From NCBI GenBank assembly GCA_018266055.1, contig JAFDYT010000010.1:20277-84276 (forward strand): DNA of 64,000 nucleotides. The letters run 5' to 3'. The stretch is from Bacteroidota bacterium. GTDB taxonomy: Bacteria > Bacteroidota > Bacteroidia > Cytophagales > Cyclobacteriaceae. Positions 3,546 through 24,105 of this stretch are shown one piece after another; within the stretch, counting starts at the first letter, position 1; the number at the start of each line of letters is the position of its first letter. The translations under genes and the position numbers were made by a program. The notes under the pieces are model-generated. The model had not been told where the DNA came from, searched no databases, and saw nothing but the letters and a program-made list of their open reading frames with translations.

Positions 3546-4568
3546 TCACTCCTTGCGGTTGAAGGTGGGGCATGGAATGAACTTGTCTTTCTTCCTAGAC
3601 TTCTGATTTACAGGGATTTCGAGGCGATATTTCAGGGCTAATTCATGGGCTCCGCCCGACGCCGGACCCAGCTTTGAAACCGTAAAATCGTAGCTGTAAA
3701 CCACCTCCAGCCTGCTGAACTGAAACCCCAAAATGATCACCGCAGCATCCTGGCTGGGGCTGTTGTCAGCATTCTTCGACACAGGAATTCCCCGGTACCA
3801 AAGTCCGAAAACAATGGGGTCGTAAAGCAGGTATGCACCCACGTCGAGTTGCTCAAAATTGGCCTGTCTTTTATAGACAAAAGAAGGCGACAACACTGGA
3901 ATCCGGTCCAGCTTGAAGGCTCCATTGTAAAGGGGAATCCTGACTCCGCCATGTATGGAAATTTTCATCGGCACAAAGGCGTATTGATTGATGAGAGACC
4001 GGTTAGGCTCATTGAGGTGTTGCGCCGAAAAGCCGAGCCAGAAATTTTTGTTGTAGGCCAGAGCTCCGGCTTTGAAATCAAAATAGTGCGCAGCGCCTAA
4101 ATTGTAAAGCGAAGGATCGCTGCTCGGTGTTGTGCCGGAATTATCAAATTGCAGTTGATCTCCAAAAATAAGCCGGTTGAAATCAATACTCCTGACGGCG
4201 TATCCAAAATTAAGTCCGGACGAGATGATCCACTTGCTGCTGATGTGCCATTTGTAGGAATACAAAAAATTGAATTGCGTGGAGCGCATGCCCGCACTTC
4301 CTGCCTGATCTTGAGTAGCCAGAAAACCGAAGCCACTGTTGAGATTCGCCAGATTAAAATCGTAGGAAAACGCGTAGGTAGAATATCCTCGCGCTACGTT
4401 AGGCCACTGGTTGCGGTAGTTGGCGATAAACCGATGATCGTTAGTCGTGCCGGTAAAGGCAGGATTGAGATACAACGGCGCCGCATAGTACTGACTGAAT
4501 TCCGGATCTTGGGCCAGCGAGGAAATCACCACGGAAAGGAAGAAGAATGACAGACAAAACCTTTTCAT
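3546..4568 (-). CDS. PorP/SprF family outer-membrane protein (copy 1)
   Basis: The 340-residue protein has a signal peptide (residues 1-19, ending SLAQ). The family hallmark DPEFSQYYAAPLYLNPAFTG follows directly after cleavage, and the rest is a run of amphipathic strands predicted to form an outer-membrane barrel. PorP/SprF proteins work with the type IX secretion system; SprF is needed for surface display of the giant adhesin SprB in Flavobacterium, whose gene lies next to it. Here the ATG overlaps the stop of the upstream 1238-residue type B cargo gene in an ATGA arrangement, so the two are translationally coupled and probably matched. The protein ends in a Lys-rich stretch and IPCPTFNRKE, a tail shared with copy 2 at 8437-9468. 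Family call is firm; pairing with the neighbour is inferred. Confidence 0.93.
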   Translation of the reverse strand: MKRFCLSFFFLSVVISSLAQDPEFSQYYAAPLYLNPAFTGTTNDHRFIANYRNQWPNVARGYSTYAFSYDFNLANLNSGFGFLATQDQAGSAGMRSTQFNFLYSYKWHISSKWIISSGLNFGYAVRSIDFNRLIFGDQLQFDNSGTTPSSDPSLYNLGAAHYFDFKAGALAYNKNFWLGFSAQHLNEPNRSLINQYAFVPMKISIHGGVRIPLYNGAFKLDRIPVLSPSFVYKRQANFEQLDVGAYLLYDPIVFGLWYRGIPVSKNADNSPSQDAAVIILGFQFSRLEVVYSYDFTVSKLGPASGGAHELALKYRLEIPVNQKSRKKDKFIPCPTFNRKE

Positions 4569-7500
4569 CGGATCAGGTTTACATCGCCTACGCGAATTAG
4601 TTTTTCTCCATTGGCCAACACCGCGGTGAGTTTGTACATGTACACATCCTGTTCACAAAGTTTGCCCTGATAGTATCCATCCCACCCGATGGTAGCGTCG
4701 TGTGTTTCAAAAAGAAGTTGGCCCCACCGGTTGAAGATGAGCATCTCAAATTCTGTCACCCCGCGCATCAGCGGAAGAAATACATCGTTCTTGCCATCAC
4801 CGCCGCCGCCGATCGTTCCGGTCGATCCGTTTCCCGGCGAGAACGCATTAGGCACTAACACTTCGTTGGCTTTTTTTACAAACACAGCGTCTGTTACACG
4901 GGCCGTGTCACTGCAATTTGAATCGTTGGTGGCTACCAGGGTAATGGTAAACAATCCGTCTTTCTTATAGAGGTGCTCGGGTCTTACTTCAATAGAGGTT
5001 TCACCGTCTCCAAAATCCCAATAGAATGTACTCGCATCTGCACTTAGGTTGGCGGTGTACATGATTCCTCCCGGAATGTAAATCACCGGTGGTGTGATTT
5101 TAAAACTCGCCACAGGCCGGACAAACACGTCGATAATGGAAAGCTTTGTCTCGGTAATTGTTTTGCCGCTGGAGTTGGATGCACTCAATGACACAGAATA
5201 TTTTCCGTTATGCAGATAGGTATGTGCTGGGTCGCTGTCCGTAGATGTTCCTCCATCGCCAAAATCCCATCGGTAAGTATTGGCGTCAGCATATTTGGTG
5301 AGATTGGTGAATTGTACCGTAAGCGGTTCGCAACCCGACTGCGGAGTGTACGCAAAATCAACTACCGGCGGTATCGGAAGAATGACCACTTGTTGCCTGC
5401 GCGATTGCGTACATACTGAATCACTCACTGCAAGTTGTATGGTGTAGGTGCCTGCGGCAGCGTAAGTATGGCTCGTCACATTCGCCAGCGAAGAGGTTGA
5501 TCCGTCGCCGAAATCCCATTTGTATTTCCATGGCCCGGTGTTCGTGTTGTTTTGAATAGTAACTGTTGATGAGGGCATTGTTTGTGAAACGGGTGTCGCC
5601 GTAAACGAAACGTTCATGGTGGCGCGTTGCGGTACGGTAATGCTTTGCGTGGTGACAGCACTGGCGCAGTTGGCCAGGTTCTTGGTATCCAATCCAAACT
5701 GAACAGAGAAATCAGTTCCCGCTCGACTGAAAGTAAACTGATATTGCGCATCCGTGCCAGATACGTCGCTTACCACCGTTCCATTTTCATTCACCGTCCA
5801 ATGATAGGTTGAAAGGCCCTGTTGTGCAGCCGTGAGTTTTACCTGAAGGGTATCGCAGTTAAATTTTAATGTATCGATGGTAAAAAGAGAAGACGGCACA
5901 GGCGCAACACGAATAGTTCGAACGGAATCGCCAAAACATCCAGAAGATAAAGTCGTCACCAGCTTTACCGAGAAATCCTGAATTGATTGTGTAGTATTTT
6001 TAAAAGTGTAGGTAAATGAAGGCGTGGTACCGGTGCTGCTAGAAGTAATCACGCCTGAAGTATTGCTAACTGTCCAGGTGTAATCCGAAGGGTTCAGCGA
6101 TTGAGTGGCAGCATCAACAGAAAAACTGATCGCCTGGGGAGAACAGTTGTCGTTGAAGGGTGAATAATTCACCGGACTAAATCCTGACTTCGTTCCCGGA
6201 AAAATAGTGATGGTTACCGGCGTGGAAATTTTTTCGCATCCATGAATGGAATAAACATGGAGGCGAACATCCTGTTGGGCATTAGCCGTTCCGGTATTCT
6301 CAAACTGATGAACAAACTGATTGGTAAACCCTGCATCAGAAGGATGCTGAGTGGCTACCGCTTGAAAACCCAGTCCATCCTTCGCATCAATTTCCCACAC
6401 ATACTTATCGATGGCATCGGGCTGAAGCGGTATGGAGGTATTGGTGAAATGAACCGTGAGCACACTACACCCCGATGTGATATCTGGAGTAAAGCTTACA
6501 TCCGGCAATGGCTCTACGGTTGTGTTAACTACAAAAACCGCGGCGCATGAATTCTGATCGGTAGTTACCCGCAAAGCCACTGGATAGGTACCCGCCACAC
6601 CAAGCGATCGCACAAAGGAAGTCTTGTTATCGAAAGCGGGATCTTTGGTAAACGTCACTCCATCGTAATTGAAGTCCCACTCGCGCAACACAATCGACTC
6701 GCCATTGATAGATTGCAGTGTAGAGGCATCAGCGAAAGCGGTGGATTGACCCTCACAGACGGTGGAAGCGGTAAAGAAAGGCACCGGATTCTGGTAGACA
6801 CGGACCTGCACTTCATCTTCTGTCTGACAACCTGTAGCATTGTCGTGAATGATCAGCTTGACACGATAAATTCCCGGCGTAATGAACGTACGATCGAAAG
6901 GACCCAACGCAGTAGAAGAAAAACCTGCGGCGGGCTGTTGCTCAATGAGCGCGTTGTTTTGATCGTAGAATTGCCATTGCCACTGGGTAGTTGCTGTTGA
7001 CGAACCTACCGACGCATCATTGAAGCGCACCTGAAACGAGGTGAAAGGCGCGGATGCTTGTTGGCAAAAGAAAGGTGTAATCGGTGTGTTCGCTAAATCC
7101 GTAGTCTGAATTTTTGCCACCAGCGAGGGAGAAATGGTAACAAAGCCATCGTAAGTGCTCACACATCCGCCGGCCGCATTATTATCCGTCACAGAAAGAC
7201 GGATTAACTTCGGACCTGAAGTGGGGTAAGCAAAAACCGGTGCAGCACTGGTAGAAGTGGAGAGTGGAGCTCCGGTTCCTGTATTATTATCAAAAAATTG
7301 CCAGGTATAGCCAAACGAAGCACCGCTGATTGAAGGCGTTTGATCATCAAAGAAAATATTATCGCCAACACAAAAAATGGTTTGCACCGGGCCGCTTGAA
7401 TTTCCAAGCCGGGTGATGAAGGAAGGTTGAGGCGAGGGCACAATCACAATCTTGGCAGTAGCTGTTTGTGCCGGGTTATCGCCATTGACCAGATCGCCGT

Positions 7501-8281
7501 TCACAGGGTTAAAAGCATTGCCATCCAGCAGGTTGTTATCGTAGGCATTGCACTGATTCCAGTTCTTCAAAGTGATATCAAATTCTTTTCCGACATCGGC
7601 GGGAAGAGTGACCGGCACATTGATCGGAAGACTTACCTGTCCGGGTGAAGTCACCGGATAAATCGGGTTGCGATTGGCGCCCGGATCTAAATAAGGAAAA
7701 CTACCCGGAGCTACGTTATTTACTTTCACTCCAGGGATTTGATTCCCAGCAGGGCCAGTGCCATAGATCCATTGAATCCACCGAGGTGCATTGTTTTCTC
7801 GCGCCGGTCGTGGAAAACAATTCCAGTCACTGTTATCCGTAAAATTTACTGTCTCGGCAAAACCCTGACACACACGAAATACCTGTGGACCAATAGACGC
7901 ATTATCGTTCGTCCACACCACTACCTGCGTATTTACTTTTGCTACACTTCCTCGTGGATTACAAGCGTTCGATGCGTCGATTACAATGTCATATCCGCAG
8001 TCGGTAGAAACATTGGGATATAAATGTGAAATTGTAACTCCAGTGGCATTGGTTTGAGTAAACGTCTCGGTCGGCGAATTATCACCCCAGTCCACATAGT
8101 ACACAGTTCCCGCTACCGATGACAGGTATCGTGTTTCGATGTTCACCGTATACGGCGCACAGCCTTTGCTGCTAGTAAGAAATTGAAACCCTGGCTCCAG
8201 CGTGCCTGCACACTGCGCCCACGACTTGCCGGAATAAATGAATAAGAAAAAGAAAGTAAATAGAATAAAATACCTGCTCAT
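4565..8281 (-). CDS. T9SS type B secreted protein with PKD domains, gliding-motility-associated C-terminus
   Basis: This 1238-residue protein has a signal peptide (residues 1-22, ending SWAQ). A cysteine-rich head carries a WGDNSP PKD-like turn, VCQGFAETVNF and WNQCNAYDNN. Many immunoglobulin-like PKD or PKD-like modules follow, and several near the C-terminus show the classic W-D-F-G-D-G motif. The last 95 residues, from VPNAFSPGNG through FNRWGQLLFE and GWDGYY to VGDVNLIR, are the CHU_C / gliding-motility-associated domain, which is the type B sorting signal of the type IX system. It is expected to cross the outer membrane and remain at or near the cell surface, perhaps as an adhesin. The head resembles that of the 4871-residue protein at 9490-24105. 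A PorP/SprF gene overlaps its stop. The ligand cannot be read from sequence. Confidence 0.9.
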   Translation of the reverse strand: MSRYFILFTFFFLFIYSGKSWAQCAGTLEPGFQFLTSSKGCAPYTVNIETRYLSSVAGTVYYVDWGDNSPTETFTQTNATGVTISHLYPNVSTDCGYDIVIDASNACNPRGSVAKVNTQVVVWTNDNASIGPQVFRVCQGFAETVNFTDNSDWNCFPRPARENNAPRWIQWIYGTGPAGNQIPGVKVNNVAPGSFPYLDPGANRNPIYPVTSPGQVSLPINVPVTLPADVGKEFDITLKNWNQCNAYDNNLLDGNAFNPVNGDLVNGDNPAQTATAKIVIVPSPQPSFITRLGNSSGPVQTIFCVGDNIFFDDQTPSISGASFGYTWQFFDNNTGTGAPLSTSTSAAPVFAYPTSGPKLIRLSVTDNNAAGGCVSTYDGFVTISPSLVAKIQTTDLANTPITPFFCQQASAPFTSFQVRFNDASVGSSTATTQWQWQFYDQNNALIEQQPAAGFSSTALGPFDRTFITPGIYRVKLIIHDNATGCQTEDEVQVRVYQNPVPFFTASTVCEGQSTAFADASTLQSINGESIVLREWDFNYDGVTFTKDPAFDNKTSFVRSLGVAGTYPVALRVTTDQNSCAAVFVVNTTVEPLPDVSFTPDITSGCSVLTVHFTNTSIPLQPDAIDKYVWEIDAKDGLGFQAVATQHPSDAGFTNQFVHQFENTGTANAQQDVRLHVYSIHGCEKISTPVTITIFPGTKSGFSPVNYSPFNDNCSPQAISFSVDAATQSLNPSDYTWTVSNTSGVITSSSTGTTPSFTYTFKNTTQSIQDFSVKLVTTLSSGCFGDSVRTIRVAPVPSSLFTIDTLKFNCDTLQVKLTAAQQGLSTYHWTVNENGTVVSDVSGTDAQYQFTFSRAGTDFSVQFGLDTKNLANCASAVTTQSITVPQRATMNVSFTATPVSQTMPSSTVTIQNNTNTGPWKYKWDFGDGSTSSLANVTSHTYAAAGTYTIQLAVSDSVCTQSRRQQVVILPIPPVVDFAYTPQSGCEPLTVQFTNLTKYADANTYRWDFGDGGTSTDSDPAHTYLHNGKYSVSLSASNSSGKTITETKLSIIDVFVRPVASFKITPPVIYIPGGIMYTANLSADASTFYWDFGDGETSIEVRPEHLYKKDGLFTITLVATNDSNCSDTARVTDAVFVKKANEVLVPNAFSPGNGSTGTIGGGGDGKNDVFLPLMRGVTEFEMLIFNRWGQLLFETHDATIGWDGYYQGKLCEQDVYMYKLTAVLANGEKLIRVGDVNLIR

Positions 8282-8343
8282 TGATCTGTTTGTTCAAGAC
8301 AAAAGACCAAAGCCATTAAGACGGTAATTAGATCACAAAGGAA

Positions 8344-8436: not shown

Positions 8437-9468
8437 TTAGTTCCAGAATCCTTGTTTGCTATTGAACGTAGGACAAGGAATCAGGCGATTGCGTTTTTTC
8501 ACACCTCGATGCAGCGGCTTGGCCGTGAATTCATAAACAATAGAAATCTCATGAGCTCCACCCGCCGAAGTCGATAACGGAGAGATGGTAAAATCGTAGC
8601 TGTAGCCCACCGTAAAGTCTTTCAGATAAATTCCGAGTAGGAATATGAGCGCATCTTGCTGCACAGTACCAATCACATTTTTCTGGAAAGGTTTTCCCCG
8701 ATACCAAAAACCAATTGACACCGGATCAACATGGTAATTGATCCCCACATCCAACTGCGAAATTCCCGATTGATTTCGGTACACGAAGGATGGTGTAAGG
8801 TAAGAGGGACGCTCGGCCGACCGAATACCGCCACTCAGATTGATCCTTGCTCCACCATGTATGGTTGTTTTCATGGACAACCTGCTCACTTCATTTAATA
8901 TGGACAAGTTCGGAGTGTTCATGTGGCTGAACGCCGCGCCTAACCACAAGGATTTGCTATACAAAAGGAATCCAGAACCAAAATCAAAATACTGTTGATT
9001 CCCTAGCCGTTGCAACGCTGGATCGAGCGATTGGTGTCCGTCGCCATATTGAAGTCCATCGCCGAGGATTAGCTTAGTTCGGTCGAGACCATTCACCCCA
9101 TATCCAAAGTATAGTCCTGGTGAAAATACAATTTTCTCGTTAAGCCTGACTTTATAACTGTAGGTAAGGCCAAGCGTGGTGGTTCTCCACCCTGCTGACC
9201 CCATCTTATCCGTACTGGCGATGATCCCGAAGCCGCTACGTAATTCATCTACCCAAATATCGTAGCTGGCCATAAACGTATTGAAGGCCTGCGGAAGGTT
9301 AGGCCATTGAATCCTGTTGTTCACCACCAGCCTTTGCTGAGGAGTAATACCAGTAAAGCCTGGGTTCAAATACAAAGGAGCCTGATAATATTGGGAAAAC
9401 TGAGGGTCTTGTGCAGAGGCCACTCCACTGATCAAACCGATAAATACGATAAACCAACATCTCTTCAT
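8437..9468 (-). CDS. PorP/SprF family outer-membrane protein (copy 2)
   Basis: The 343-residue protein starts with a signal peptide (residues 1-19, ending ASAQ) and then has DPQFSQYYQAPLYLNPGFTG, almost the same as copy 1. Other shared blocks are IQWPNLP/NQWPNVA, GSAGWR/GSAGMR and the SYDFT strand near the C-terminus. It ends with a basic stretch and IPCPTFNSKQGFWN, so the IPCPTFN tail with its cysteine is conserved between the copies. It is the downstream gene of the giant 4871-residue cargo gene, separated by 21 bases, and probably acts as that protein's outer-membrane partner in type IX secretion or surface retention, by analogy with SprF and SprB. A stem-loop follows the gene. Copy 1 and copy 2 are clear paralogues. 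Confidence 0.93.
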   Translation of the reverse strand: MKRCWFIVFIGLISGVASAQDPQFSQYYQAPLYLNPGFTGITPQQRLVVNNRIQWPNLPQAFNTFMASYDIWVDELRSGFGIIASTDKMGSAGWRTTTLGLTYSYKVRLNEKIVFSPGLYFGYGVNGLDRTKLILGDGLQYGDGHQSLDPALQRLGNQQYFDFGSGFLLYSKSLWLGAAFSHMNTPNLSILNEVSRLSMKTTIHGGARINLSGGIRSAERPSYLTPSFVYRNQSGISQLDVGINYHVDPVSIGFWYRGKPFQKNVIGTVQQDALIFLLGIYLKDFTVGYSYDFTISPLSTSAGGAHEISIVYEFTAKPLHRGVKKRNRLIPCPTFNSKQGFWN

Positions 9469-9489
9469 ACTAACTCAAATATATGCTTT

Positions 9490-12400
9490 TTATCGGATCA
9501 AAGTTACGTCTCCTACCTGAGTGGTGCGCTGCTGGTCTGACAAGCGCAGGGTAAGTTTATACACATACACTCCCGCTGGCATCAGGCGACCATTTTGGTC
9601 ATAGCCATCCCAGCCAATCGTTTGGTTATTACTTTCAAACACAAGATTTCCCCACCGGTCGTACACTTGCATGTTGAATTCCTCCACGCCTTTTACCTGC
9701 GGCAAGAACACATAGTTATACAAGTCTACACCACCTACACCACCACTTGGTCCGGCGGTACTTGGCGTAAAGGCGTTAGGAACTTTAGCCACGCCACCTT
9801 GCTTGGCAGTGATAAGCTTAAAGGTTGTAGCCGAGCATTTGACAGTGTCCGACGAGCCGTCTTTATAATGAACCGGATGAACGTAGGTGGCTGTGAATTT
9901 CAAAGAATCAACGCCTTCAAATTTGTATTTGTACTTAGGCTGAAACTCAGTCGAAGTTCCGCCGTCACCAAAATCCCACAGATACTTGTTGGCCGTATTA
10001 CCACTTCCATTCACTGTGGTGATTTCCTGATCGGGAACATATACTGTGCGCGGAAACACATCAAAGATCGCTTCCGGCTTACCATACAATAATATACTTG
10101 TGGTGTCTGACGCAGTTTGGCCGGTCAGTGAACTACTTGTCAGCAAGTACACAAGGTAAGATCCTTCGCTTGATATACTGAACACCGGCAACAATGCATT
10201 GGACGAGGCCACGGTATCCCGTGTTACCTTATCAATTACAGCCCACTTATACCGATCACCAGTAGCAAGGTTCTCAGTAACATTAACCTTGGTTGGGAAA
10301 CAAGAGAAGATCGGGTCGACTTTGAACTTCGCAACAAGCGGATCGAGTAAGATGCTCACTGTTTTAGTAACAGTGCTCACGCAAGTTAATCCCGCCGTCT
10401 CCGCATCGATGTTTGTTGCCGTCAGCGTAGCCTCACGATTACCCGGCGATGAGTAATTCACCGTAAGAGGTGATGCAGAACTTGTTTGTGTAGCAGGCGA
10501 AGCGCCAAGGCCATAATCCCAGTCAAATCGGAACGGAGTCCAATCTGGAGTACCCTGTTCGAGTGATTTATTAGTAAAGGTTGCTACCGCAGTACCCATG
10601 AGGAAGTGCGTAGCAGTGTAATCAAAGTCTGCTTTAATCGATTTATAAACTGACACTTGAATTGTGGTGTCTGCCGGGCAATGTCCATTATCTGCATGGT
10701 ACAGAATCTCTATCACCTGCGGATTGCTCTTAGTCGCATCGATTGATAGTGTGTAGTTGGCATTGATGGAGGTTTTCACTTCCTCTTGTTGCCCTACATT
10801 TCCTTTATCGCGATAGAACCAGGTATTCCCCGTGGTAAGCACTCCTACCGTTTGGTTGGTCAGCTTCACCTGATCGCCGCTACAAATTTGTGACTTGTCT
10901 ACCGACACCTTAGCTTTTAGCTGAGCATACACAGTGATCGTTTTAGTAGCAGTTTTTGCACATCCATTCGGGAAATGCGAGTTCAAAGCAGCCGTAAGAA
11001 CAATGTTCGGTTTAAGCGACGAAGTAAGACTCGTGTTGATGAAATTATGCTTGATGACTTTGTTGGCTACGCTTGTTGTAGCTACGAAAGTTGAATCATT
11101 GCCGTCGCCCCATTGCCATGTATACGACGTACCTGCCACTTGATTGAACTGGAAGGAGGTGAGATCAGGAGTACATGTTGCCAGCGGTGAAATAATGCTG
11201 TAGGTCGCATCGGGCAGCCCGACAGTATACACCACTTGATCGGTAAGCGGAATGCTACATCCCAGATTATCCTTCAGCGAAGTGAGTTTGTAGGTTGTTG
11301 ATACCGCTGGTTGAACCTGTACTGACTTAAAGTTTCCGACATTGGTTGAAGTAAAGTTGGTCGTTCCATCAGTATATCCCAGCGTAAATGGTGCCTGACC
11401 TTGAAGTGCAATCTGCAAGAAATCTTTGCTGCCAGTACACAACCAGGTTGAGTCATTCTGGAAAGTTCCTCCCATCTTCGGCGAGGCAAGCAAACTCATC
11501 ACTTTAGGTGTACTTGCGCAAGCTGTGGCTCCAGGACCTATTGCGGTAATGGTGTAAGAGATGAAGTCTTCCGCTGAAGTGAGCGTATCCTGTACAACTT
11601 GATTAATTGTCAAACCGCTACCGGGATTAGTATCAACTCCTGAATTATTAGGATCGGCTACCCACGTAAACGTTGTTCCTGCTACTGCACTGGTAAGGGG
11701 AACATTCAACGTGCTACCATAACATATTGATGCAGGCGCCGTGAAGGCAACATTCGGAATTGGATCAACTTCAATGTCGATGTCAACCGGTGATCCTGAG
11801 CATCCACTTGCTTTAGGCGTAATGTGGTAGCGCACATTGGCCGCCACTGAACCTGAGTTCTTAAGTGTTTGGAAAATCAAATCACCAGCGCCATTGGATT
11901 GACCAGAGGAAGCACCCGAAGTCACCGATGCAGTCCATGAATTAATCGTTCCTGACACATCCGCTGATAGTGATATATTGACGAGGTCGGTGCTACAGAT
12001 CGCTGCCGGGGAAATTGTCGGGTTGATGATGGAGGTAGTAACCACCGGAGCAGGATTAACATTTAGCGTGATCGTCACGCTATTTCCTGAACAACCAAGT
12101 CCTCCGCTAACTACAGGTTGCAATACGTAAGTTACCGTTTGCTGTGTCGTTGTTGGATTGCTCCACACGTCCGCAATGCTTTGTCCGCTGGTGTAAGTTG
12201 TTACCGCTACCGCAGGCGAAGTCAATGTCATACCTCCAGTCGGCGTCACACTGGATACGATGAATTGAACAGTACCCGCTGAAGGAACGGTTGGTGAAGT
12301 CAAGGATATATTGCTGGCTGTACCTTCGCAGATTGTTTGAATTGCCGGTGAGGCCACCAATTTAGGTAACGGATCTACAGTCACAACAACATTGACTGTA

Positions 12401-15400: not shown

Positions 15401-18400
15401 GTTGCATTCAGCGTGGTGGCCACTACCGGTTGAGGTTGAATGGTGACAGTGACATTTACTGGCACACCTGCACAACCTGCTGCGCTGACCGGCACTACAG
15501 TGTAAACCACATTCAAGTTGCCTGATGTCGTATTGGTGAAGAGGTCTGATGCTAAATATCCTGCAGCTACACCCGTAGCCGGAATGGCAGCGTTGCTTCC
15601 GCCCGCCGTTAACCCGGGTGCAATTGAAATCGCGGTGATATTATAATTCTGTGCAGCCACCGAAGTTCCATTGGTAGCTAAGGTTAAACCAGTCGCGACG
15701 GCACTACACCACGACATGTCAAGTGTGCTTGATAAAACTGGTTTGGGATTAATCTTAATCGTGATGACTTTCGCAGTTCCCGAGCAATTTGCTCCACTCA
15801 CAGGAACAACTGTGTAGGTTACGTTAAGAGGATTTGCAGTAACATTATTGAATTTATCTGCCGCAAGATACCCAGCCGCTACAGCCGTTGCCGGAACCGT
15901 TGCATTTGCGCCGGCCGCCACCAGCCCAGGGGCGATTGTGCGGGCAGTAATATTATAATTCAGAGCTGCTACCGATGTTCCATTAGTATTCAGCGTAAGC
16001 GCAGTAGCTGCGTCGCTACATACTGTAGCATCTAAAGAGTTAGATACAACCGGCTCTGGATTAATGGTCATGACCACCGTGGCAGGATTGCCTAAGCAAC
16101 TGCTGGCACTTACGGGCACGATAGTATAAGTAGCGGTTAATGGTAATGCCGTTGTGTTCACAAATTTGTCGTTTGTGAGGTAAGAATTGGCCACGCCTAC
16201 CGCCGGAATCGCAGCATTGCCTCCGTCGGCAGTAAGGCCTGCAGCAAGTACCAGGTTTGTGATGTTATAATTTGAAGCCGCAACGGATGTTCCGTTGGTG
16301 TTCAAGGTCAGGTTCGTTACCGTGCTGCTACAAATTGTGTTGTTTAGTGTGGTTGCTAAAACTGGCTCCGGATTAATGGTGATCGTAATTATTTTAGATG
16401 CACCCACACATCCCAATGCACTTACCGGAACTACAGTGTAAGTAACATTCAATGCAACTGCATTTTTGTTTGTGTACAAATCGCTTGCCAGATAATTAGC
16501 CGCTACTCCTGTAGCCGGAACAGTAGCATTCGAACCACCCACCGATAGCCCGCCAGCCACAGTCCTTCCGGTAATGTTGTAGGTAGCTGCAGCAACGGAA
16601 GTTCCATTCGTATTCAAGGTTAAACCAATAGCCACGTCACTGCATTCTGTGTCGTTTAAGGAACTCGACATTACAGGCTCAGGATTTATGGTTATGGTTA
16701 TAGTCTTTGAAGGACCAGGGCATCCTGCCGCACTCAATGGAACTACCGTGTAATTTACAGTCAATGAACTATTGCTTGTGTTGGTGTACTTGTCACCGGA
16801 CAAGTATGTTGGTACTACATTGCTGGCCGGTACAACAGCATTAGTCGCTCCTGGTGTAAGCCCGACAGCAACAGATACTGAAGTGATGTTATAATTCGAC
16901 GCCGCTACGGAAGTACCATTGGTATTTAGCGTAAGCCCTGTCACTGTGCCGCTACAGACAGTTGTATTCAATGAACTTGAAACAATCGGCTCAGGGTTCA
17001 CAGTCAGCGTAATATTCTGAGGATTTCCTAAACAACCCGCAGCACTTACCGGCACCACAGTGTAGATCACATTCAAAGGCAAAGTACCTGTGTTGGAATA
17101 CGTATCGTTAGTCAAATAATTAGCCGCTACGTTACTGGCTGGTACCGTCGCATTTCCACCAGGGACTAGTCCTCCTGCGATTGATACTGCTGTAATATTA
17201 TACAATGCCGCCGCGACAGAAGATCCGTTGGTATTTAGTGTTAATCCAATTGGCACAATACTACAAACCGTACCTCCCAGCGTAGTGGATACAACAGGCT
17301 CTGGATTGATCGTGACCGTAATAACCTGCGCAGCGCCCAGACACGATCCGATTGAACCTACCGGAACTACTGTGTATGTTACTGTCAAAGGATTTGCGGT
17401 GGTATTTGTATAGACATCCGAAGCCAGGTAATTGTTGGGTACACCGCTTGCCGGCACTGCAGCGTTGGCTACGTTTGGTGTCAGTCCGCCCGATATGGAG
17501 CGCGAAGTAATATTATAGCTGGCCGCACCAACTGAAGTTCCATTGGTGTTAAGTGTTAATCCAATTGCACTGCGACTACACACCACGGGTGCAGGGGCAG
17601 ACATTACCGGTTCGGGATTAATAGTTATTGTGATTACCTTGGGTTGTCCCGTGCAAGGAGTTGCACTCGTCGGCACCACGGTGTACGTAACTGTGAGCGC
17701 TGCGTTTCCAGTATTCTTAAATACGTCGGCCGCAAGATAGCTGGCAGGCACTCCGGTTGCAGGCACGACTGCATTAGTTCCGTTTGCTACCAAGCCAGGA
17801 CTTATTGATCTGGCTGTAATATCATAACTCGCGGCACCAATAGAGGTTCCGTTGGTATTGAGTGTAAGACCTGTAGCCGAACCGCTACATACAGACGCAT
17901 TTAGTCCGTTGGCAATTACCGGCTCAGGTAAAATCGTAAGCGTTATTGATTTTGGAGGGTTTCCATTACAACCTAAGGTACTGACAGGTACAACCTGATA
18001 CACAACTGTCAAAGAAGTGTTTCCCGTGTTTGTAAATTGATCATTGGCCAGATAACCCGCTGCTACATTTGAAGCAGGAACTATGGCGTTACTTCCTCCT
18101 GCCACAAGACCAGGAGCTATGGAAATACCGGTAACGGTGTACCCACTCACTGGCGTAGAGCCTGCAATTGTACTCAATGTCAATCCCGAGGCAATACCAC
18201 TACACAAACTTTTGTCCAATGAATTGGAAAGAGATGGTTGAGCATTGATCGTTACATTAATATTAATCGAGCTTCCAACGCAACCTGCTGCTGTCACTGG
18301 AACGGCCGTGTACTGCACCACAAGCGGACCCACGGTGGTATTTAAATAAGAATCGTTGGATAGATACGTAGAACTCACCCCCGTTGCTGGAATTACCGCG

Positions 18401-21400
18401 TTGCTTCCACTTGGAGTTAATCCGCCAGGAACGGAAACGGAAGTAATATTAAAATTATTTATCGCTGGGGAAAGTGCTGTCTTGGTAAGCGTCAGTCCAA
18501 TAGCCACGCCGCTACAAACTGTCGGACTCACGGGTGAAATTGTGGGCTGAGGATTTACTGTAACTACTACAGTTTGTGGCGTTCCATTACATCCACTACC
18601 ACTTTTCGGAGTGATGGTGTAGGTCGCCGTGATTGCCGCTGATGAGCTATTGGTCAGAACATCAGTAATATGGAATGTGCCAGGAGCGCCGGCTGCTACG
18701 TTCACACCAGCAGTACCTTGAACTGATGCGTCTGACATCACCGGGATCGGCCAGTTGAAAATGGTCCCTGCAGGAAGGTTTAGCGGAGAAGTAAGGATTT
18801 CGTAATTCACCTGACTGCCACTACAGATTGTTTTCGTCTGCGGACTTACCAAAACAGGCTCAGGATTCACGGTAACCACCACACTTTGAGTAGCGCCAAC
18901 GCAATTGGGTGCTGCTGTAGCCGTGGGAGTAACGTTAAAAGTTACAGATCCTACTGCACCCGATGTGTTTTTCAAGGCGCCCGCACCTGTAAAGGTTGAA
19001 GAAAGATTTCCCGATCCTGATTGCCCAACAATGGCTCCAGTGATGCTACCGGTAATACTTACTACTGTCCATGAATAGGTGCTTGGAATAGCCGATGTAA
19101 ATACAAGCGAAGGTGCACTTCCGCTACAAACTGATGCCGTGGCGCTCGAACTCATCACTGGTCTGGAGTTAACTGTAACCGGTAACGTTGCTGGCGCACC
19201 AACGCAACCAGAAGACGCCGTTTCTGTCACCTGAATAGTTACGGGAGAAATCGTTCCAAAGTCCACGTTGATCGTACTACCTGATCCACTTGGTGTGGCG
19301 CCGGTTACTGTCCATGCGTACGTTGAGGAACCATTCGGAGTAGTGACGCTATAAGGAACTGCAGTTTGATTTGTACACACCTGTGTTGCTCCGGTAATCG
19401 TATTCGCCGTAGGAGCTGCGTTCACCACCACATTCATGGTTTGCGTATTTCCTGTACAGCCATTCAATGTCTCAAATACATTTATAGCAACTGTTCCGGT
19501 AAGCGCCGGAAATTTCAAGAGCACAAAGAAGTTGGATGAATTAGTTCCACCTCCACCGAAGAGTGTTACATCTCCGGCAGGCGTACCGTTCACAGTCCAT
19601 GTATAGTTAGAACCCGGATTGAATGTAGGATCCAATTGATACAGGAGAATGTTGTTACCCGTACACACTGAGGTATTTCCAACGATCGGATTATCAATCG
19701 GCCGTGCGAGGGTGGTCAGATTTATAGTTGCCGTGTTAAAGCAATTCGTGGGTTTAGAAGTATCAGTAACCTTGGCGTACAATGTAGTTGATCCTGTTAA
19801 GGTATATGCTGTAGGCGTTGGCACCAGCGTAGTCAGGGCCACATCAGAGTACCATGCCACGGTACGGTTGACAAGTGATCCGTTGGCAATCGCAGTGTTA
19901 TAGGTTGTTAAGTCAAACGGCCCATGCTGGTTTCCATGTGGAGGTATTGGAGTAGCGCCTACATGATCTTCGCAGAAGGAAAGGTTTTGGTTAACCACTG
20001 TTGGTAAACCATTAATAGTGAATGTGATTTTTCCAGTGTTAACACAATTGAACGGTGCCGGAGAAGTTGCGATAAAATAGAAAATCTTACCGTTGGTCAC
20101 TGTAACATTGGTTGGAGTTCCCACAGGAAGTGTGTGAGCAGCATCCGTATACCACGCGACGGTAGTGCCTGGTGCGGCGACTGTATTTGTTACTGAAGAA
20201 TTGTATGACGTCAAATCAACTCCAGCGTGAGATCCACCCCCTTTTACATCCTCGCACAACTGCGGAGCCGGATCCACTGAAGTAGGCAACGGATTAATAG
20301 TAATATTTACGGTGCTCGAACTATTGGCACAAACTCCAAGAGCACTCGCAATAGTCCAGGTAAGCGTCGTGGTAATTGGTGCACCACCCGGCGCGGGAGC
20401 CGGAAGCCCAGAGGCAGTTGTAGTCGGATTATGAGTATTGCCAAAGGTAACACCACCAGGTCCTGTCCAAGTACCTGTACCTCCATTGGTCGCCACGTTA
20501 CCAGCGAGAGTAACACTTGCAGCGCTGGCACACACATTGGGTTGGGCGGGGCCTGCATTCGCCGCTGCCGGTAATGGATCTTGAGTTTGTACTACAGCTA
20601 ACCCCGTACTGCTTTTACAAAATGTAGGTGCTGTAGTGCTGAAGGAATAGGCGTAATAGGTAGCCGTAGCATTACTTGTAGGCGTGAACTGCTGATTGCG
20701 CACACCGCCGGTAGTTCCTACAGCCGCTACCGTTCCGGCCGCATCAGAGTACCATTGAATATTGAATCCTACCCCTGGGTCAGTAACACTTATCGTCGCT
20801 CCGGTAGCACTGGAGGAACACGCCGTTCCATTTACAGCGCCCGTCGGTGCGGATGGCAATGGATTGACCGTAAAGCTTAAGTTGGTATTAAAAGTGGTTT
20901 GACAACCTAGAGGAGTAAGTATTGAAACTATAGTTATAGTATGGGGACTTGGCGCTGTAGTGTTCAGGGCAGCCTCGGTGAAAGAGATTGCCGTTGCTAA
21001 ATCTCCATTGGCAAGATTAACCGTGAAGGTCTTGGTTGACACTGAACCTCCATCGACTTTATAACTTAACGTATAATTTCCGGCAGAGGTGGAAGGCGCA
21101 TCAATGCTAAAATTTAAAACAGGATCGGTGGTGGAGGCTCCGTTAAAACAAGTACTGGTCGGCGTTAGCGTCGGAGCCGTATCAAAGATCGGTGCAAAAC
21201 CTCCGATTGTTACCGAAGCCGTACTTCCCATGGAGGAAGCTACGCATCCATTCGCATCGGTAAGTGCTGTAATTTGATAAGTCGTGGCAACACCAGGGTT
21301 GGGCGCAGTGATTGTGAATGGAGAGGCGGCCCAGTTATTTACGGTTACAGGTCCACCTGGGGTCATGGTATAGGTCACATTAAATGGCCCAGTTCCGGTT

Positions 21401-24105
21401 AACACCCAATTGATATCAGGGGCCGGATTTCCCGAACAAACCGCCCCACCTCCGGTAGGATTAGCTGCCGTAGGCAAAGGATTGATAGTCACCACTACAC
21501 CGGCCGAAACGGGGCTTGCACAATTGGACGGAGCCACGCCAATCACCTGAACAGTGTATGTTCCTGATTGCGCCACCGTATTGAGTGTAATTGTGCTGGT
21601 GGTGATGCCCGTTGAAACACCATTTTTATACCATAAATAGCTGGAGGCTAGTCCGCCCACATTTGATGATTGCAATACTGTTTTTTGAGTACCATCTGCA
21701 CAAATAGTCAAGCCCGTGCTGGCGCCAGTCTGGCTAATCGTGGGTTGAGGGGGAACAGGATTTACCGTGATCGTTGCTGCAGCACTGTTGGCGCTGGCAC
21801 ATGTTCCGCTTTTCACGACAGCTCTGTACATGTATGTGCCCGCACCGAAGGCAGGGAGTTCTGAAAAAGTAGTTGTAGTATTAACAATGTCTGTCCACGA
21901 GGTTCCACCATCAATTGAGCGTTGCCATTTTTGAATGGTTCCTGTATGGCCAGCCAAAGTCATTGTCCCAGTGGTGGTAACTCCATCATTACAAATTGTT
22001 TTATTTGGAGTGACCGATCCCCCTACCGAAGTAGGGTCAATGGTAATCGCAAGCGTAGAGTTAGATGTATTACAATTTGGTGCGCTTACATATTGATTGA
22101 GTACCTGAATTGTAGTGCTGCCTGATCCCGTAAAATTGGCGGTCATACTTTGCGCATTAACGCCTGAGGCAACACTTGCATTTCCGTTGCTGAATGACCA
22201 AAGGTATTGGGTCGATAAGGTTACAATAGCCGAATTAGTAAATTTATTAGCCGCAATTGTTTTTGTTGGGGCAGCTGCAGCTAAAGAATAAGCCACTCCG
22301 GTAGACCCGACGCAAAGTGGTGTAGTACCAGTGATTGCCCCTGGCGTGGATAGCTGAGGCATTACCGTAAGCACAATTTCGACGGGATCACTTTCGCAAG
22401 TATTTGTGGCACCTACTACATACGTTGCCCAAACCGAATACACTGCGCCAGCACCACCACCCTGGCTAGTGTTGATCGGCGCACTTATTGCCGCATTAGC
22501 CACCGTATAATCTGAAAGCTTAAAATTTGTGCTGTTTGTACCGTTACTATTGGTCATCAAGGTCGCTCCACCCAATTTTGGGTTTTTGTTGTACCAATTG
22601 ATAGCCGTGGAACCTGTTGTACCTCCAACTGTAAAGTTCTGCCCTGTTGTACTAGCGCCGTAACATAAAGAAGGATTCGTAGCTGTTGGCGTAGTGGGTT
22701 TGGTAATTATGGTGATTGGCGCAGAGATACTTACTGGTGCAGGGCTGTTAGGCGTAATAGAGTTATACGGATTACAAACATCCCAATAATCCATTCTCAC
22801 CCAAAGTTTCTGATTTACCGCCTGATTATTGGTAGCAGTGGTAAAAATTGTTCCCATATAACTTGTCCCAGTAGGTGCCGTCACCGAAGGAGGAATAGTG
22901 ATAACTCCATTGGCATCCGCTGAACCGGTGACTGGATAAAATCCTGTTGGAACAACCAACGAGCCAAGTGCATCATTGTTTGTGACTCTCACGGTAGCGC
23001 CGCCCAAGGCTGCTGGAAGAGTAACCCAGATGTCAGGAATGTTACCAACACCTCCATTATCTACACTACCATAAACTATTCTTACATAACGATAGTCCTG
23101 GTTGGGTACGTTCTTCTCCTGGCTTAAGCGGCAATTGAGAAGAGTGTTGTCGTTAAACTGCATGCCCACGTTGGTGCCAAGACATACTTTGTCAGAATTC
23201 GCTACCAGAGGAGGTAACTGCAGAGTGCCTGTATTGGCATTATCTGTATCGTAGTTCGCAAAGGTCGTTGTCTGTGCTACAGATGCGCATGATAACCCCG
23301 TAGAAGTGTTTTTGGGGAGAATTGTGGCAATCCAATCGCAAGAATTGGGGGCTGCTCCCGTGGTAGATGAGGGGTAATTATGAGTCTTTGTTCCGTTTAT
23401 GATGATACCCGGATTTCCACCGGTAAATCCACTAGGATCTATATAAGTAGTGGAAGGATTAAACGATGCGTCCACTTGCTGAACAGGCACATTGGCGTCG
23501 GTAGTTGCATCGCCCCATGTGATGGTGTAAAAATTTGTCCCGATTAGGAAAGTAGAACTGTTTCTGTATCGTAAGCTCAATTCATACTGCCATTGCCAAA
23601 AATCCATTACCACCGGAATACACTGGTCAACAGACTTGGAGGGAATCTTCCCTTGCGAAAGCTTTATAATATCATTACAAGTAAATACCCATTGATTCAG
23701 AGAAGATTGATCTGTAAACGATGTAACTCCTGAGGCTGATGTCAAATTTCCTACTGCCGCATTGTAACTTACCAACACAGCTTCGCCAGGCTTTACGAAT
23801 ACTTCACTTGCACTGTGGCCTGGGGCGGTGTGGGCATCGAAAGTTACCAACAAGGTCGTTCCGGTGGCTAAAATTACGCTTGTGACAGGTACGGAAGTTC
23901 CAGCCACTTTAACAGTCCATCCTGCCGTGGTCGGCGCAGGCTGAGTTATAGTAGCCGTGAATGTAACCAGGGTTTGATTTTGAGCTAAGGTTTCGTGCCT
24001 CGCTTTACTAAATGCTGCCTGCGAAAACGCCCTTTCGCTTAGGACGAATAGGGCGAGAAATGTGAATATTTTAAAATAGGCTAGTTTAGGTAATTGGTGG
24101 TTCAT
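9490..24105 (-). CDS. Giant T9SS type B repeat protein (4871 residues), adhesin-like
   Basis: One uninterrupted frame of 14.6 kb encodes 4871 residues, about 490 kDa. A signal peptide (residues 1-29, ending AFSQ) is followed by a cysteine-containing head with YTITWGDATTDAN, DKVCLGTNVGMQFND and WDVCNPYN. Dozens of beta-sandwich PKD-like repeats follow, including a regular array of 13 units at about residues 1850-3200. Classic PKD domains near the C-terminus carry WQWGDGN, FDWDYG and WDFGDGG. The final 95 residues, from VPNAFTPSTAG through YDRWGNLVFE and GWDGYD to VGDVTLIR, form the CHU_C type B sorting domain. Composition is rich in Thr, Asn, Ser, Val and Gly and poor in charge, as in surface adhesins such as SprB. 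It is probably exported by Sec and then by the type IX system, with the PorP gene 21 bases downstream as partner. Adhesion or gliding is inferred. Confidence 0.92.
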   Translation of the reverse strand: MNHQLPKLAYFKIFTFLALFVLSERAFSQAAFSKARHETLAQNQTLVTFTATITQPAPTTAGWTVKVAGTSVPVTSVILATGTTLLVTFDAHTAPGHSASEVFVKPGEAVLVSYNAAVGNLTSASGVTSFTDQSSLNQWVFTCNDIIKLSQGKIPSKSVDQCIPVVMDFWQWQYELSLRYRNSSTFLIGTNFYTITWGDATTDANVPVQQVDASFNPSTTYIDPSGFTGGNPGIIINGTKTHNYPSSTTGAAPNSCDWIATILPKNTSTGLSCASVAQTTTFANYDTDNANTGTLQLPPLVANSDKVCLGTNVGMQFNDNTLLNCRLSQEKNVPNQDYRYVRIVYGSVDNGGVGNIPDIWVTLPAALGGATVRVTNNDALGSLVVPTGFYPVTGSADANGVITIPPSVTAPTGTSYMGTIFTTATNNQAVNQKLWVRMDYWDVCNPYNSITPNSPAPVSISAPITIITKPTTPTATNPSLCYGASTTGQNFTVGGTTGSTAINWYNKNPKLGGATLMTNSNGTNSTNFKLSDYTVANAAISAPINTSQGGGAGAVYSVWATYVVGATNTCESDPVEIVLTVMPQLSTPGAITGTTPLCVGSTGVAYSLAAAAPTKTIAANKFTNSAIVTLSTQYLWSFSNGNASVASGVNAQSMTANFTGSGSTTIQVLNQYVSAPNCNTSNSTLAITIDPTSVGGSVTPNKTICNDGVTTTGTMTLAGHTGTIQKWQRSIDGGTSWTDIVNTTTTFSELPAFGAGTYMYRAVVKSGTCASANSAAATITVNPVPPQPTISQTGASTGLTICADGTQKTVLQSSNVGGLASSYLWYKNGVSTGITTSTITLNTVAQSGTYTVQVIGVAPSNCASPVSAGVVVTINPLPTAANPTGGGAVCSGNPAPDINWVLTGTGPFNVTYTMTPGGPVTVNNWAASPFTITAPNPGVATTYQITALTDANGCVASSMGSTASVTIGGFAPIFDTAPTLTPTSTCFNGASTTDPVLNFSIDAPSTSAGNYTLSYKVDGGSVSTKTFTVNLANGDLATAISFTEAALNTTAPSPHTITIVSILTPLGCQTTFNTNLSFTVNPLPSAPTGAVNGTACSSSATGATISVTDPGVGFNIQWYSDAAGTVAAVGTTGGVRNQQFTPTSNATATYYAYSFSTTAPTFCKSSTGLAVVQTQDPLPAAANAGPAQPNVCASAASVTLAGNVATNGGTGTWTGPGGVTFGNTHNPTTTASGLPAPAPGGAPITTTLTWTIASALGVCANSSSTVNITINPLPTSVDPAPQLCEDVKGGGSHAGVDLTSYNSSVTNTVAAPGTTVAWYTDAAHTLPVGTPTNVTVTNGKIFYFIATSPAPFNCVNTGKITFTINGLPTVVNQNLSFCEDHVGATPIPPHGNQHGPFDLTTYNTAIANGSLVNRTVAWYSDVALTTLVPTPTAYTLTGSTTLYAKVTDTSKPTNCFNTATINLTTLARPIDNPIVGNTSVCTGNNILLYQLDPTFNPGSNYTWTVNGTPAGDVTLFGGGGTNSSNFFVLLKFPALTGTVAINVFETLNGCTGNTQTMNVVVNAAPTANTITGATQVCTNQTAVPYSVTTPNGSSTYAWTVTGATPSGSGSTINVDFGTISPVTIQVTETASSGCVGAPATLPVTVNSRPVMSSSATASVCSGSAPSLVFTSAIPSTYSWTVVSITGSITGAIVGQSGSGNLSSTFTGAGALKNTSGAVGSVTFNVTPTATAAPNCVGATQSVVVTVNPEPVLVSPQTKTICSGSQVNYEILTSPLNLPAGTIFNWPIPVMSDASVQGTAGVNVAAGAPGTFHITDVLTNSSSAAITATYTITPKSGSGCNGTPQTVVVTVNPQPTISPVSPTVCSGVAIGLTLTKTALSPAINNFNITSVSVPGGLTPSGSNAVIPATGVSSTYLSNDSYLNTTVGPLVVQYTAVPVTAAGCVGSSININVTINAQPSLSNSLDKSLCSGIASGLTLSTIAGSTPVSGYTVTGISIAPGLVAGGSNAIVPASNVAAGYLANDQFTNTGNTSLTVVYQVVPVSTLGCNGNPPKSITLTILPEPVIANGLNASVCSGSATGLTLNTNGTSIGAASYDITARSISPGLVANGTNAVVPATGVPASYLAADVFKNTGNAALTVTYTVVPTSATPCTGQPKVITITINPEPVMSAPAPVVCSRSAIGLTLNTNGTSVGAASYNITSRSISGGLTPNVANAAVPASGVPNNYLASDVYTNTTANPLTVTYTVVPVGSIGSCLGAAQVITVTINPEPVVSTTLGGTVCSIVPIGLTLNTNGSSVAAALYNITAVSIAGGLVPGGNATVPASNVAANYLTNDTYSNTGTLPLNVIYTVVPVSAAGCLGNPQNITLTVNPEPIVSSSLNTTVCSGTVTGLTLNTNGTSVAASNYNITSVSVAVGLTPGATNAVVPASNVVPTYLSGDKYTNTSNSSLTVNYTVVPLSAAGCPGPSKTITITINPEPVMSSSLNDTECSDVAIGLTLNTNGTSVAAATYNITGRTVAGGLSVGGSNATVPATGVAANYLASDLYTNKNAVALNVTYTVVPVSALGCVGASKIITITINPEPVLATTLNNTICSSTVTNLTLNTNGTSVAASNYNITNLVLAAGLTADGGNAAIPAVGVANSYLTNDKFVNTTALPLTATYTIVPVSASSCLGNPATVVMTINPEPVVSNSLDATVCSDAATALTLNTNGTSVAALNYNITARTIAPGLVAAGANATVPATAVAAGYLAADKFNNVTANPLNVTYTVVPVSGANCSGTAKVITIKINPKPVLSSTLDMSWCSAVATGLTLATNGTSVAAQNYNITAISIAPGLTAGGSNAAIPATGVAAGYLASDLFTNTTSGNLNVVYTVVPVSAAGCAGVPVNVTVTIQPQPVVATTLNATLCSGLAIGLTLNTNGTSVTAANYNITARTISGGLVAAGSNAAVPATGVAAAYLANDVFTNTTNSALTVNYTIVPVSALNCQGAPQVVTITINPEPVVANGLNSTACSGSNIGLVLNTNGTSVAAATYSITARTIAPGLTAAGTNVVVPASNVAANYLSTDKFTNTGSLPLTVTYTVVPFSGVPCQGASKTITITINPEPVVASGLDKSICSGLSTGLTLNTNGTSVAASSYNILSITIGGTLTASVSNAVVPATGVAANYLAADVFKNTSNTPFTVTYVVAPVSAAPCVGANKTITITVNPEPVGSTFTDPLCATTLNHDLSTQITNGVNSVFTYTVSSDNVGVPAAANRAVASAAPITDSYTNNTGVPATLTYTVTPFSVANNCQGATFTYVVKVSPTPVGANATQAALCSRSAININPQTKITNGVISTFTWTAVYDNNLTGGTGSGTGNITDNLVNQTGAVLNATYTVTPSSGPCPGLSFTITQPINPEPVMDPGLATKTVCSNNASSSNPINVVLNTNGVSVAASTYDVSLVSQDAGLTGSPTTGVNLSANAIKNDVFNNVGAVPLKVTYQITPKSAAGCYGVPFNIAVTVNPEPVLAALSNTVCSREVTNLILSTSGTSVGAAQYKLISVTVPGTITANASNTVVGSVGGVSLIKNDSYTNTTSAAKVVTYSILGISASGCQGVPVTMTITVNPEPILVPGASAVCSGVPSGIVLGTAVGSAAITQYNLKQVLTSAGITPSGTNAGLGTYAANNFLASDVFTNTTSSPLTVTYTIAPVAAGCVGTDQTVVLTVNPAPALASLNTTVCSTNSSGILLSTLASSVPAANYNITSVVIQAGLSQTAGNTGARVGVANTEIQGDKFTNSTNGTLTVTYTVVPVTGASCQGPATAVVLTVEPTITATPVNNSPSICSNGVTNIVLNSPTTPSSGAVSFNYTAVSSVGGLLSGFIPAASNLPMGYTIADNLVNTSNSPATVTYKITPIANGAKNGTGCSGATVNVVVTVDPLPKLVASPAIQTICEGTASNISLTSPTVPSAGTVQFIVSSVTPTGGMTLTSPAVAVTTYTSGQSIADVWSNPTTTQQTVTYVLQPVVSGGLGCSGNSVTITLNVNPAPVVTTSIINPTISPAAICSTDLVNISLSADVSGTINSWTASVTSGASSGQSNGAGDLIFQTLKNSGSVAANVRYHITPKASGCSGSPVDIDIEVDPIPNVAFTAPASICYGSTLNVPLTSAVAGTTFTWVADPNNSGVDTNPGSGLTINQVVQDTLTSAEDFISYTITAIGPGATACASTPKVMSLLASPKMGGTFQNDSTWLCTGSKDFLQIALQGQAPFTLGYTDGTTNFTSTNVGNFKSVQVQPAVSTTYKLTSLKDNLGCSIPLTDQVVYTVGLPDATYSIISPLATCTPDLTSFQFNQVAGTSYTWQWGDGNDSTFVATTSVANKVIKHNFINTSLTSSLKPNIVLTAALNSHFPNGCAKTATKTITVYAQLKAKVSVDKSQICSGDQVKLTNQTVGVLTTGNTWFYRDKGNVGQQEEVKTSINANYTLSIDATKSNPQVIEILYHADNGHCPADTTIQVSVYKSIKADFDYTATHFLMGTAVATFTNKSLEQGTPDWTPFRFDWDYGLGASPATQTSSASPLTVNYSSPGNREATLTATNIDAETAGLTCVSTVTKTVSILLDPLVAKFKVDPIFSCFPTKVNVTENLATGDRYKWAVIDKVTRDTVASSNALLPVFSISSEGSYLVYLLTSSSLTGQTASDTTSILLYGKPEAIFDVFPRTVYVPDQEITTVNGSGNTANKYLWDFGDGGTSTEFQPKYKYKFEGVDSLKFTATYVHPVHYKDGSSDTVKCSATTFKLITAKQGGVAKVPNAFTPSTAGPSGGVGGVDLYNYVFLPQVKGVEEFNMQVYDRWGNLVFESNNQTIGWDGYDQNGRLMPAGVYVYKLTLRLSDQQRTTQVGDVTLIR
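14503..18555 (-). repeat. 13-unit tandem array inside the giant protein, about 104 codons per unit
   Basis: Thirteen consecutive units run from one N-P-x-P boundary to the next, 4053 bases in all, averaging 312 bases or 104 residues. Each unit has the order NPEPV, a CSG-like turn, GLTLNTNGTSVAA, YNIT, a GL turn, NAxVPAxxVAAxYLxxDxFTNT, LTVTYTVVPVSA, CxG and ITITI. The two cysteines are present in all 13 units, about 78 residues apart, and would suit one disulfide per domain. Synonymous bases differ widely between units, so the array is not a recent duplication. More diverged units flank it on both sides. The units look like the PKD-like beta-sandwich repeats common in Bacteroidota surface proteins. 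Confidence 0.9.

Follow-up and report, generated by a model that had tools for sequence, protein, structure and literature searches.

The stretch of DNA analyzed here (the window, 64,000 nt in its full length) bears on its minus strand two adjacent units, each of which couples the gene of a type B secreted cargo to that of a PorP/SprF carrier. The short cassette, unit A, specifies a 1238-residue cargo with a head, a PKD-type stalk and a CTD (cargo A, 4565..8281), and its reading frame overlaps by 4 bases that of the 340-residue carrier A (3546..4568). In the long cassette, unit B, 21 bases separate the reading frame of the 4871-residue cargo B (9490..24105) from that of the 343-residue carrier B (8437..9468). 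Carriers A and B score far above the cut-offs of both PF11751 (213 and 209.7 bits, cut-off 22.3) and TIGR03519 (253.3 and 240.4 bits, cut-off 90.55), and fall into separate clades in our trees. The type B CTD makes up the last 110 residues of each cargo (4568..4897 in A and 9493..9822 in B, minus strand) and is recognized in both by CHU_C (PF13585; 36.3 and 46.5 bits, cut-off 27), with the TIGR04131 score falling just above its cut-off of 35 in cargo A (35.9) and just below it in cargo B (32.6). The reading frames and profile scores thus bear out the two-unit arrangement proposed in an earlier note made from the sequence alone, and the head motifs named there are found in both cargo translations. 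The same note took the two PorP copies for close paralogs; at 45% identity, they are old ones. The genome as a whole has 7 PorP genes and 15 CHU_C domains. Downstream of unit A lies a 316-residue gene, which we take to resemble acetyl-CoA carboxylase alpha, and upstream of unit B a divergently oriented gene for CTP synthase. Tandem Repeats Finder detected no DNA-level repeat in positions 1-26000, a scan of 3300-3600 for promoters and terminators returned nothing, and a search of solved structures recovered no relative of PorP at E 1. Elsewhere in the window, a third large surface protein of 1673 residues with PKD_5 repeats (58940-63961, minus strand) ends in a type A-like sorting tail (Por_Secre_tail) and so probably uses another export carrier, and a 1031-residue TPR protein (50281-53376, minus strand) matches the T9SS component PorW/SprE below the cut-off (67.9 against 250 bits).

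Comparison of the carrier sequences points to a feature that had escaped the earlier note: both PorPs end in the motif IPCPTF (3561..3578 in carrier A and 8464..8481 in carrier B, minus strand), the cysteine of which (Cys333 and Cys332, respectively) is the sole one past residue 30. All 36 PorPs of the A and B clades possess a tail of the form [ILV]PCP[TSAN][FY], again with the only cysteine past residue 30, and in each of the 22 loci with the tandem arrangement (see below) both PorPs have one cysteine after residue 25. A comparable tail is seen in the T9SS component PorG. PorG of this genome (NF052316) ends in DIPCPSSPYR; a PorG match is present in 53 of 59 genomes of the family, and the 30 family PorG loci that were fetched all show one cysteine in the last 30 residues, within [IV]PCP in 23 cases. 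So two protein families, the PorP carriers and PorG, share one tail motif, as they do with the CxC in Flavobacterium. In F. johnsoniae, a disulfide from the tail CxC of SprF to Cys343 of GldK is reported to hold SprF on the moving gliding track, and PorG bonds the same GldK cysteine (PMC12635249). The same source describes the second cysteine of the CxC as the one that bonds GldK and SprF with only that cysteine as still moving helically; gliding on agar required both cysteines, SprF without Cys324 was GldK-linked in only a minority of molecules, and export of SprF does not need the tail cysteines. For PorG of P. gingivalis, it proposes a helper oxidant, and it gives Cys356 of PorK as the PorG-binding residue. 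GldK of this genome (419 against 350 bits) has a cysteine, Cys245, that aligns with this PorK Cys356 (PorK sequence from structures), and GldJ is likewise encoded (TIGR03530; GldJ_short, 595 against 383 bits). The GldK and PorG cysteines are no indication of gliding by themselves, because they are needed for secretion itself.

The twin cysteine of the SprF type is absent from both carriers of the window, which have the single cysteine of IPCPTF; in a seven-carrier alignment, this residue lines up with the second of the two cysteines in Flavobacteriaceae-like CxC tails. Across the class sample, 18 of the 19 genomes for which both loci were fetched combine a single-cysteine PorG tail with a carrier lacking CxC (16 of these 18 carriers having a further cysteine about 12 residues upstream), and one has CxC in both proteins, as does a further genome, G198, from beyond the 19. 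In G175, PorG has one tail cysteine and the carrier two, eight residues apart. A tail cysteine is present in 29 of the best 30 class carriers fetched, the remaining one (L270) having none. The twin and single states thus give a faint hint of covariation between PorG and carrier, with few changes behind it. From the tail motif and the analogy to SprF, we infer that the carrier cysteine is a single-cysteine, SprF-like disulfide clip to the gliding track. Because agar gliding needed both SprF cysteines and linkage without Cys324 was confined to a minority of molecules, such a single-cysteine tail might fail without a helper oxidant.

The tail cysteine is selective: it occurs in 3 of the 7 PorPs of this genome (those of units A and B and an orphan with a divergent 1748-residue cargo beside it) and in 3/11, 5/12 and 4/9 of those in three others. 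The core PorP beside gldK in this genome has none, and PorPs ending in PRYF or PRFF without a tail cysteine are common in the same class. At locus L333, an orphan PorP with the tail IPCPDF (2000-3067, minus strand) is divergent from a 1748-residue type B cargo (3205-8451, plus strand) and is possibly the counterpart of the F. johnsoniae orphan shuttle. In F. johnsoniae, the static cargo Fjoh_3952 is reported to share an operon with a PorE homolog, whereas the mobile cargos have none (PMC12618676). Fjoh_4750 and Fjoh_1123 are published as mobile, the latter in few cells. The 65 PorPs found in eight genomes include 24 with a tail cysteine, of which 2 adjoin or are fused to a PorE-like gene, as against 13 of the 41 others (one-sided Fisher p 0.028; p 0.085 when the six A/B PorPs of G000, G065 and G107 are set aside). 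Both tail-cysteine PorPs with such a neighbor come from G187, the post hoc removal of which gives 0/21 versus 13/38 (p 0.0013). For this count, two downstream genes and a fusion served as homology queries for PorE-like genes, an OmpA regular expression having first found 1/59. Six of these genes, scanned against NCBIfam, best matched the PorE/CHU_0125-OmpA models, below the cut-offs, and a Pfam search of those at L343, L350 and L390 revealed no OmpA domain. The tail was taken as the last 14 residues, shortened from 20 after L381 and L389 showed a cysteine 18-19 residues from the end; it would leave out five PorPs of the A/B clades from other genomes, whose cysteine lies 15-25 residues from the end. 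At L342 and L361, one gene (521 and 517 residues, respectively) joins a PorP to a C-terminal portion akin to the PorE-like genes, in the manner of a built-in anchor; that of L342 is OmpA-like by motif. In G191 and G187, which belong to two other families (L376 and L387), the gene directly after a tail-cysteine carrier best matches GldJ, just below the cut-off (450.7 and 452.8 against 458.2); in these two genomes, the PorP followed by gldK (above cut-off) has just a cysteine 18-19 residues from its end. The PorE-like and GldJ-like neighbors are suggestive of a tie between the tail cysteine and the track but do not prove it.

The adhesins could instead be static, with the PorPs just holding their cargo on the surface, for example via a PorE encoded elsewhere, and the tail cysteine serving export or barrel biogenesis. 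Static type B cargos are indeed reported from F. johnsoniae (PMC12618676), and the sharing of the tail by PorG, a part of the secretion apparatus, means that the export machine could read it. However, the PorE-like queries matched none of the genes that follow the A PorP in G000, G065 and G107, and the next gene downstream of the B PorP is that of cargo A, with no PorE between, so that no PorE-like gene directly follows the A/B PorPs in these three genomes. The dispensability of the SprF tail cysteines for export (PMC12635249) and the abundance of PRYF/PRFF-ending PorPs in the same class likewise speak against such a role for the cysteine, and we regard static display as rather unlikely. On the preferred reading of a clip to the track, the periplasmic IPCP tail of each PorP would form one disulfide with Cys245 of GldK, and both adhesins would ride the moving GldJ-GldK-GldN track in the manner of SprB-SprF, with a single tail cysteine in place of the CxC. 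With one cysteine in the tail, formation of the bond would call for a further oxidant, in line with the proposal made for PorG of P. gingivalis.

The family of the window was treated as one group (f1), in which a search with the B PorP at E 1e-40 matched 147/148 genomes; 40 stretches together with the window yielded 36 PorP-cargo cassettes with a cargo-PorP spacing of -3 to 90, adjacency being part of the collection criterion. Over 55 PorP-CTD pairs (the 36 A/B pairs and 19 others from four genomes), the distances in the two trees correlate with a Spearman rho of 0.90, with 0/500 permutations as high, and the 36 A/B pairs alone give a rho of 0.78 (0/500, permuted within clades). Cargo CTD and PorP hence co-branch in the tree comparison that the earlier note had outlined; this is also expected from plain linkage and is no proof of binding specificity or contact. 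Separate evidence for such contact comes from F. johnsoniae, in which two type B cargos tested are reported to need their own PorP/SprF and three orphans to share one, with crosstalk where the CTDs have 68% identity (PMC12618676).

The head core extends from Cys41 to Pro284 in cargo A (7430..8161) and from Cys162 to Pro470 in cargo B (22696..23622), both on the minus strand, as delimited by invariant cysteines and profile comparison (see below). Head alignments and trees comprise the 30 complete heads, 6 of the 36 cargos being excluded for a cut 5' end. The earlier note supposed that head and partner had stayed matched. For the short cargo this mostly stands, as its heads generally track the carrier, L310 being the single clear departure; for the long cargo it fails, as the heads reject two genus clades recovered by PorP and CTD. 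The B carriers of the window, G094 and G017, which belong to one genus, form a clade with support of 98/99 in the PorP tree and 80/89 in the CTD tree, and the B heads reject this clade with a delta lnL of 100 (p-AU 1.7e-29). Similarly, the pair G065 and G122 of another genus (PorP 100/100, CTD 99/99) is rejected by the B heads with a delta lnL of 79.5 (p-AU 4.5e-4). Both genera are taxonomic groups that were picked after a quick tree; genus g33 also looked split, and genus g16 agreed. In the converse direction, PorP rejects 3/3 head groupings tried (p-AU 5e-5, 3e-4 and 4e-5), and the CTD rejects two of them (p-AU 0.006 and 1e-5) and does not reject the third (0.089), these groupings having been picked from the head tree after it was seen. 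Along cargo B, identity between the window and G094 is 27-49% over residues 1-1200, 65-77% from 1400 to 4000, 38-53% over 4000-4800 and 85% in the CTD.

Hidden paralogy, or fast and uneven evolution that misplaces the heads, could produce such a conflict with no exchange at all. The heads do evolve fast (45% identity where PorP has 86%), and the three B units of G074 indicate that extra copies existed. Against this, the head data actively reject the carrier genus clades by the likelihood differences given above, PorP and CTD return the rejection for three and two of the three head groupings (chosen after seeing the head tree), and under paralogy alone the CTD, as part of the same gene, and PorP, encoded next to it, would have moved together with the head. 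Hence, we give this explanation a low probability and favor the exchange of tips. In unit A, 18 of the 21 other tandem loci show 66-74% identity to the window in the head and 60-78% in the carrier, and two more, those of G107 and G011, diverge in head (33 and 43%, respectively) and carrier (58 and 49%) alike. The tandem locus L310 departs from this, with an A head 31% and a carrier 71% identical to those of the window; it joins G107 in the A-head tree, and PorP rejects the pairing of the two (p-AU 0.0065). The CTD of L310 also groups with G107 (90/85), so that more than the tip may have moved. As the B heads reject genus groupings that PorP and CTD recover, the tips have probably been replaced or exchanged on a conserved base, frequently in B and rarely in A.

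A scan of named genomes recovered 29 loci, recorded as Bacteroidetes, Cytophagales, Cyclobacteriaceae or Flammeovirgaceae bacteria, which derive from 28 metagenome bins and one isolate, Chryseotalea sanaruensis, in which unit B is present (L315). Unit A lies directly after unit B in 16 of these loci, is absent within 8 kb in 9 (judged by reading-frame end motifs alone), and the remaining 4 end too early for a call. Counting the window and five further genomes, the tandem is present in 22 loci, throughout which cargo A always measures 1233-1275 residues. The A clade consists of the same 7 rows in the PorP and CTD trees (SH-aLRT 83 and 89, not starred) and the B clade of the same 24 rows (SH-aLRT 96 and 97). 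The A/B duplication is therefore old, predating the genera sampled. That the tandem arose by recent duplication in this organism, as the adjacency and common strand of the units might suggest, is barely credible: the A and B PorPs are only 45% identical and sit in separate clades with members of several genera, and the PorP trees together with the 22 tandem loci refute it.

The homology of the A and B heads posited by the earlier note also emerges clearly, by profile-profile comparison. BLASTP of cargo A against cargo B gives 30% identity over the last ~460 residues (E 3e-45) and just E = 0.001 for the heads as two sequences alone. With hhalign, 11 A heads and 19 B heads, aligned separately, match with a probability of 100 and E 3.4e-58 over 330 columns, as opposed to a probability of 6.5 for the A-head profile against a stretch of the B stalk as control. 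Six cysteines are invariant in 30/30 complete heads (41, 95, 107, 138, 155 and 244 in A numbering), as are D149, N154, N163, R167, Y173, W241 and P284. Searches of the 13 other type B proteins of this genome with the A-head and joint head profiles gave no match at E 1. The B-head profile alone gave one (E 5.9e-10, 29 bits), aligning model positions 338-508, which we estimate to lie beyond the head core, with residues 1056-1205, close to the base of a protein of 1408 residues. The proposition that the two heads share just generic PKD features such as the WGD turn and the Ig fold, for which the E of 0.001 from BLASTP might speak, is refuted by the profile comparison with its stalk control, the invariant residues and the lack of matches among the 13 other type B proteins, and is exceedingly improbable.

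Pfam finds nothing in the A head of the window and chance-level matches only in other members, and PDB sequences searched with the head gave no credible match. Structure prediction gave a weak model for the A head (pLDDT 60.8, pTM 0.53) and a useless one for the B head (pLDDT 32.8); the 50 Foldseek matches listed for the former are mostly beta-sandwiches of the Ig, FnIII or cadherin type, with a query TM of at most 0.36. Given these weak models and low scores, we do not claim a receptor-binding or adhesive fold for the heads.

As the earlier note also held, the stalks differ: that of the long cargo contains an array of 24 recognizable units of an Ig-like PKD_5 repeat with a usual spacing of 104 residues (11767..19158, minus strand, from profile searches), and the short one has none. 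The 15 B units compared show a mean identity of 49% and two cysteines each. This repeat is absent from the short A cargos in 7/7 cases (six tandem ones plus the one in G094, encoded on a separate contig). With a repeat-unit profile built from cargo B of the window, cargo length tracks unit number across the 30 complete cargos (Spearman 0.94). Complete B cargos range from 2328 to 5619 residues, apart from that of G066 (1550 residues), the placement of which between A and B is unsure. As 9/19 B cargos, of up to 4168 residues, show just 0-3 units by this profile, their stalks must consist of other or diverged domains. Two loci, L086 and L087 (G090 and G016), pair A-like carriers with long cargos (3826 and 3985 residues) holding 9 and 8 B-type units, from which the repeat array would either have been gained twice or predate the A/B split. 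In G074, the three B units lie on one contig (L063, L064 and L065), with cargos of 2807, 2823 and 2328 residues and diverged heads.

Taken together, these observations lead us to favor, as the reasonably probable account, a system in which both adhesins are exported, held by their carriers and clipped by a single cysteine to the gliding track, with the length and tips of the long arm being variable; we regard its export-and-anchor part as highly probable. After export, the CTD would stay on its own PorP and, therefore, the N-terminal head would be the far, outermost tip. The length of the short arm would be fixed, and that of the long arm would vary by gain and loss of repeats. The tips, above all that of the long arm, would be replaced by recombination as base and carrier stay, and the two reaches would serve near and far contact. 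A broader generalization is put forward tentatively, at somewhat less than an even chance. The C-terminal tail cysteine of the carrier, usually followed by proline, might be a general label that decides between riding the track and staying; PorG would share the label, and its forms would change together in the two proteins, with CxC in one Flavobacteriaceae-like group and the single IPCP in the family of the window. This family would have on one track a fixed short and a variable long adhesin with interchangeable tips.

If this holds, the tail cysteine would be a sequence rule for telling mobile from static carriers, which could be sorted from their last residues. A large environmental lineage would then share the SprF-type disulfide link in a chemically simpler form that uses one tail cysteine, and its members would run two arms, one short and one long, off the same drive and swap their tips. 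T9SS type B pairs, SprB-SprF and the GldK disulfide are already known. In 2025, some F. johnsoniae type B adhesins were reported to move with the gliding machinery and others to be static, a neighboring PorE gene being named a likely mark of the latter (PMC12618676). In the portion of the open-access literature covered, which excludes subscription papers and supplements, neither a carrier tail with a single cysteine nor a tail-based rule for sorting PorPs nor tip exchange in such adhesins came up.

Among the closest known systems is SprB-SprF of F. johnsoniae, which, as described in PMC12635249, likewise couples a very long type B cargo to its own PorP/SprF carrier with a tail cysteine, the docking cysteine of GldK (Cys343 there) and GldJ being found in this genome too. 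It differs in its CxC tail, as against the one cysteine (IPCP) in the carriers here, and in that the present system has two tandem units, one fixed and short and one variable and long, with homologous heads. Because the twin-cysteine feature is absent, we do not call these carriers SprF, even though they are proposed to work like SprB-SprF. PorG, disulfide-linked to GldK/PorK (PMC12635249), has the same I-P-C-P tail in the same genome but is a smaller protein of another family (NF052316) with no cargo. In PG1035-PorP-PorE of P. gingivalis (PMC9143113) and Fjoh_3952-Fjoh_3951-Fjoh_3950 (PMC12618676), a type B cargo is likewise held by a PorP-like protein, on the cell wall; PorE is part of the former complex, and this role was proposed from the operon for Fjoh_3950. 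Unlike these, the A/B units have no adjoining PorE, and their carriers have the tail cysteine. Finally, fibrillar adhesins with shuffled ligand-binding domains (PMC10952558) offer a parallel for a tip exchanged on a conserved base; in the present units, a T9SS PorP carrier goes with the base, and Pfam offers no credible match for the head.
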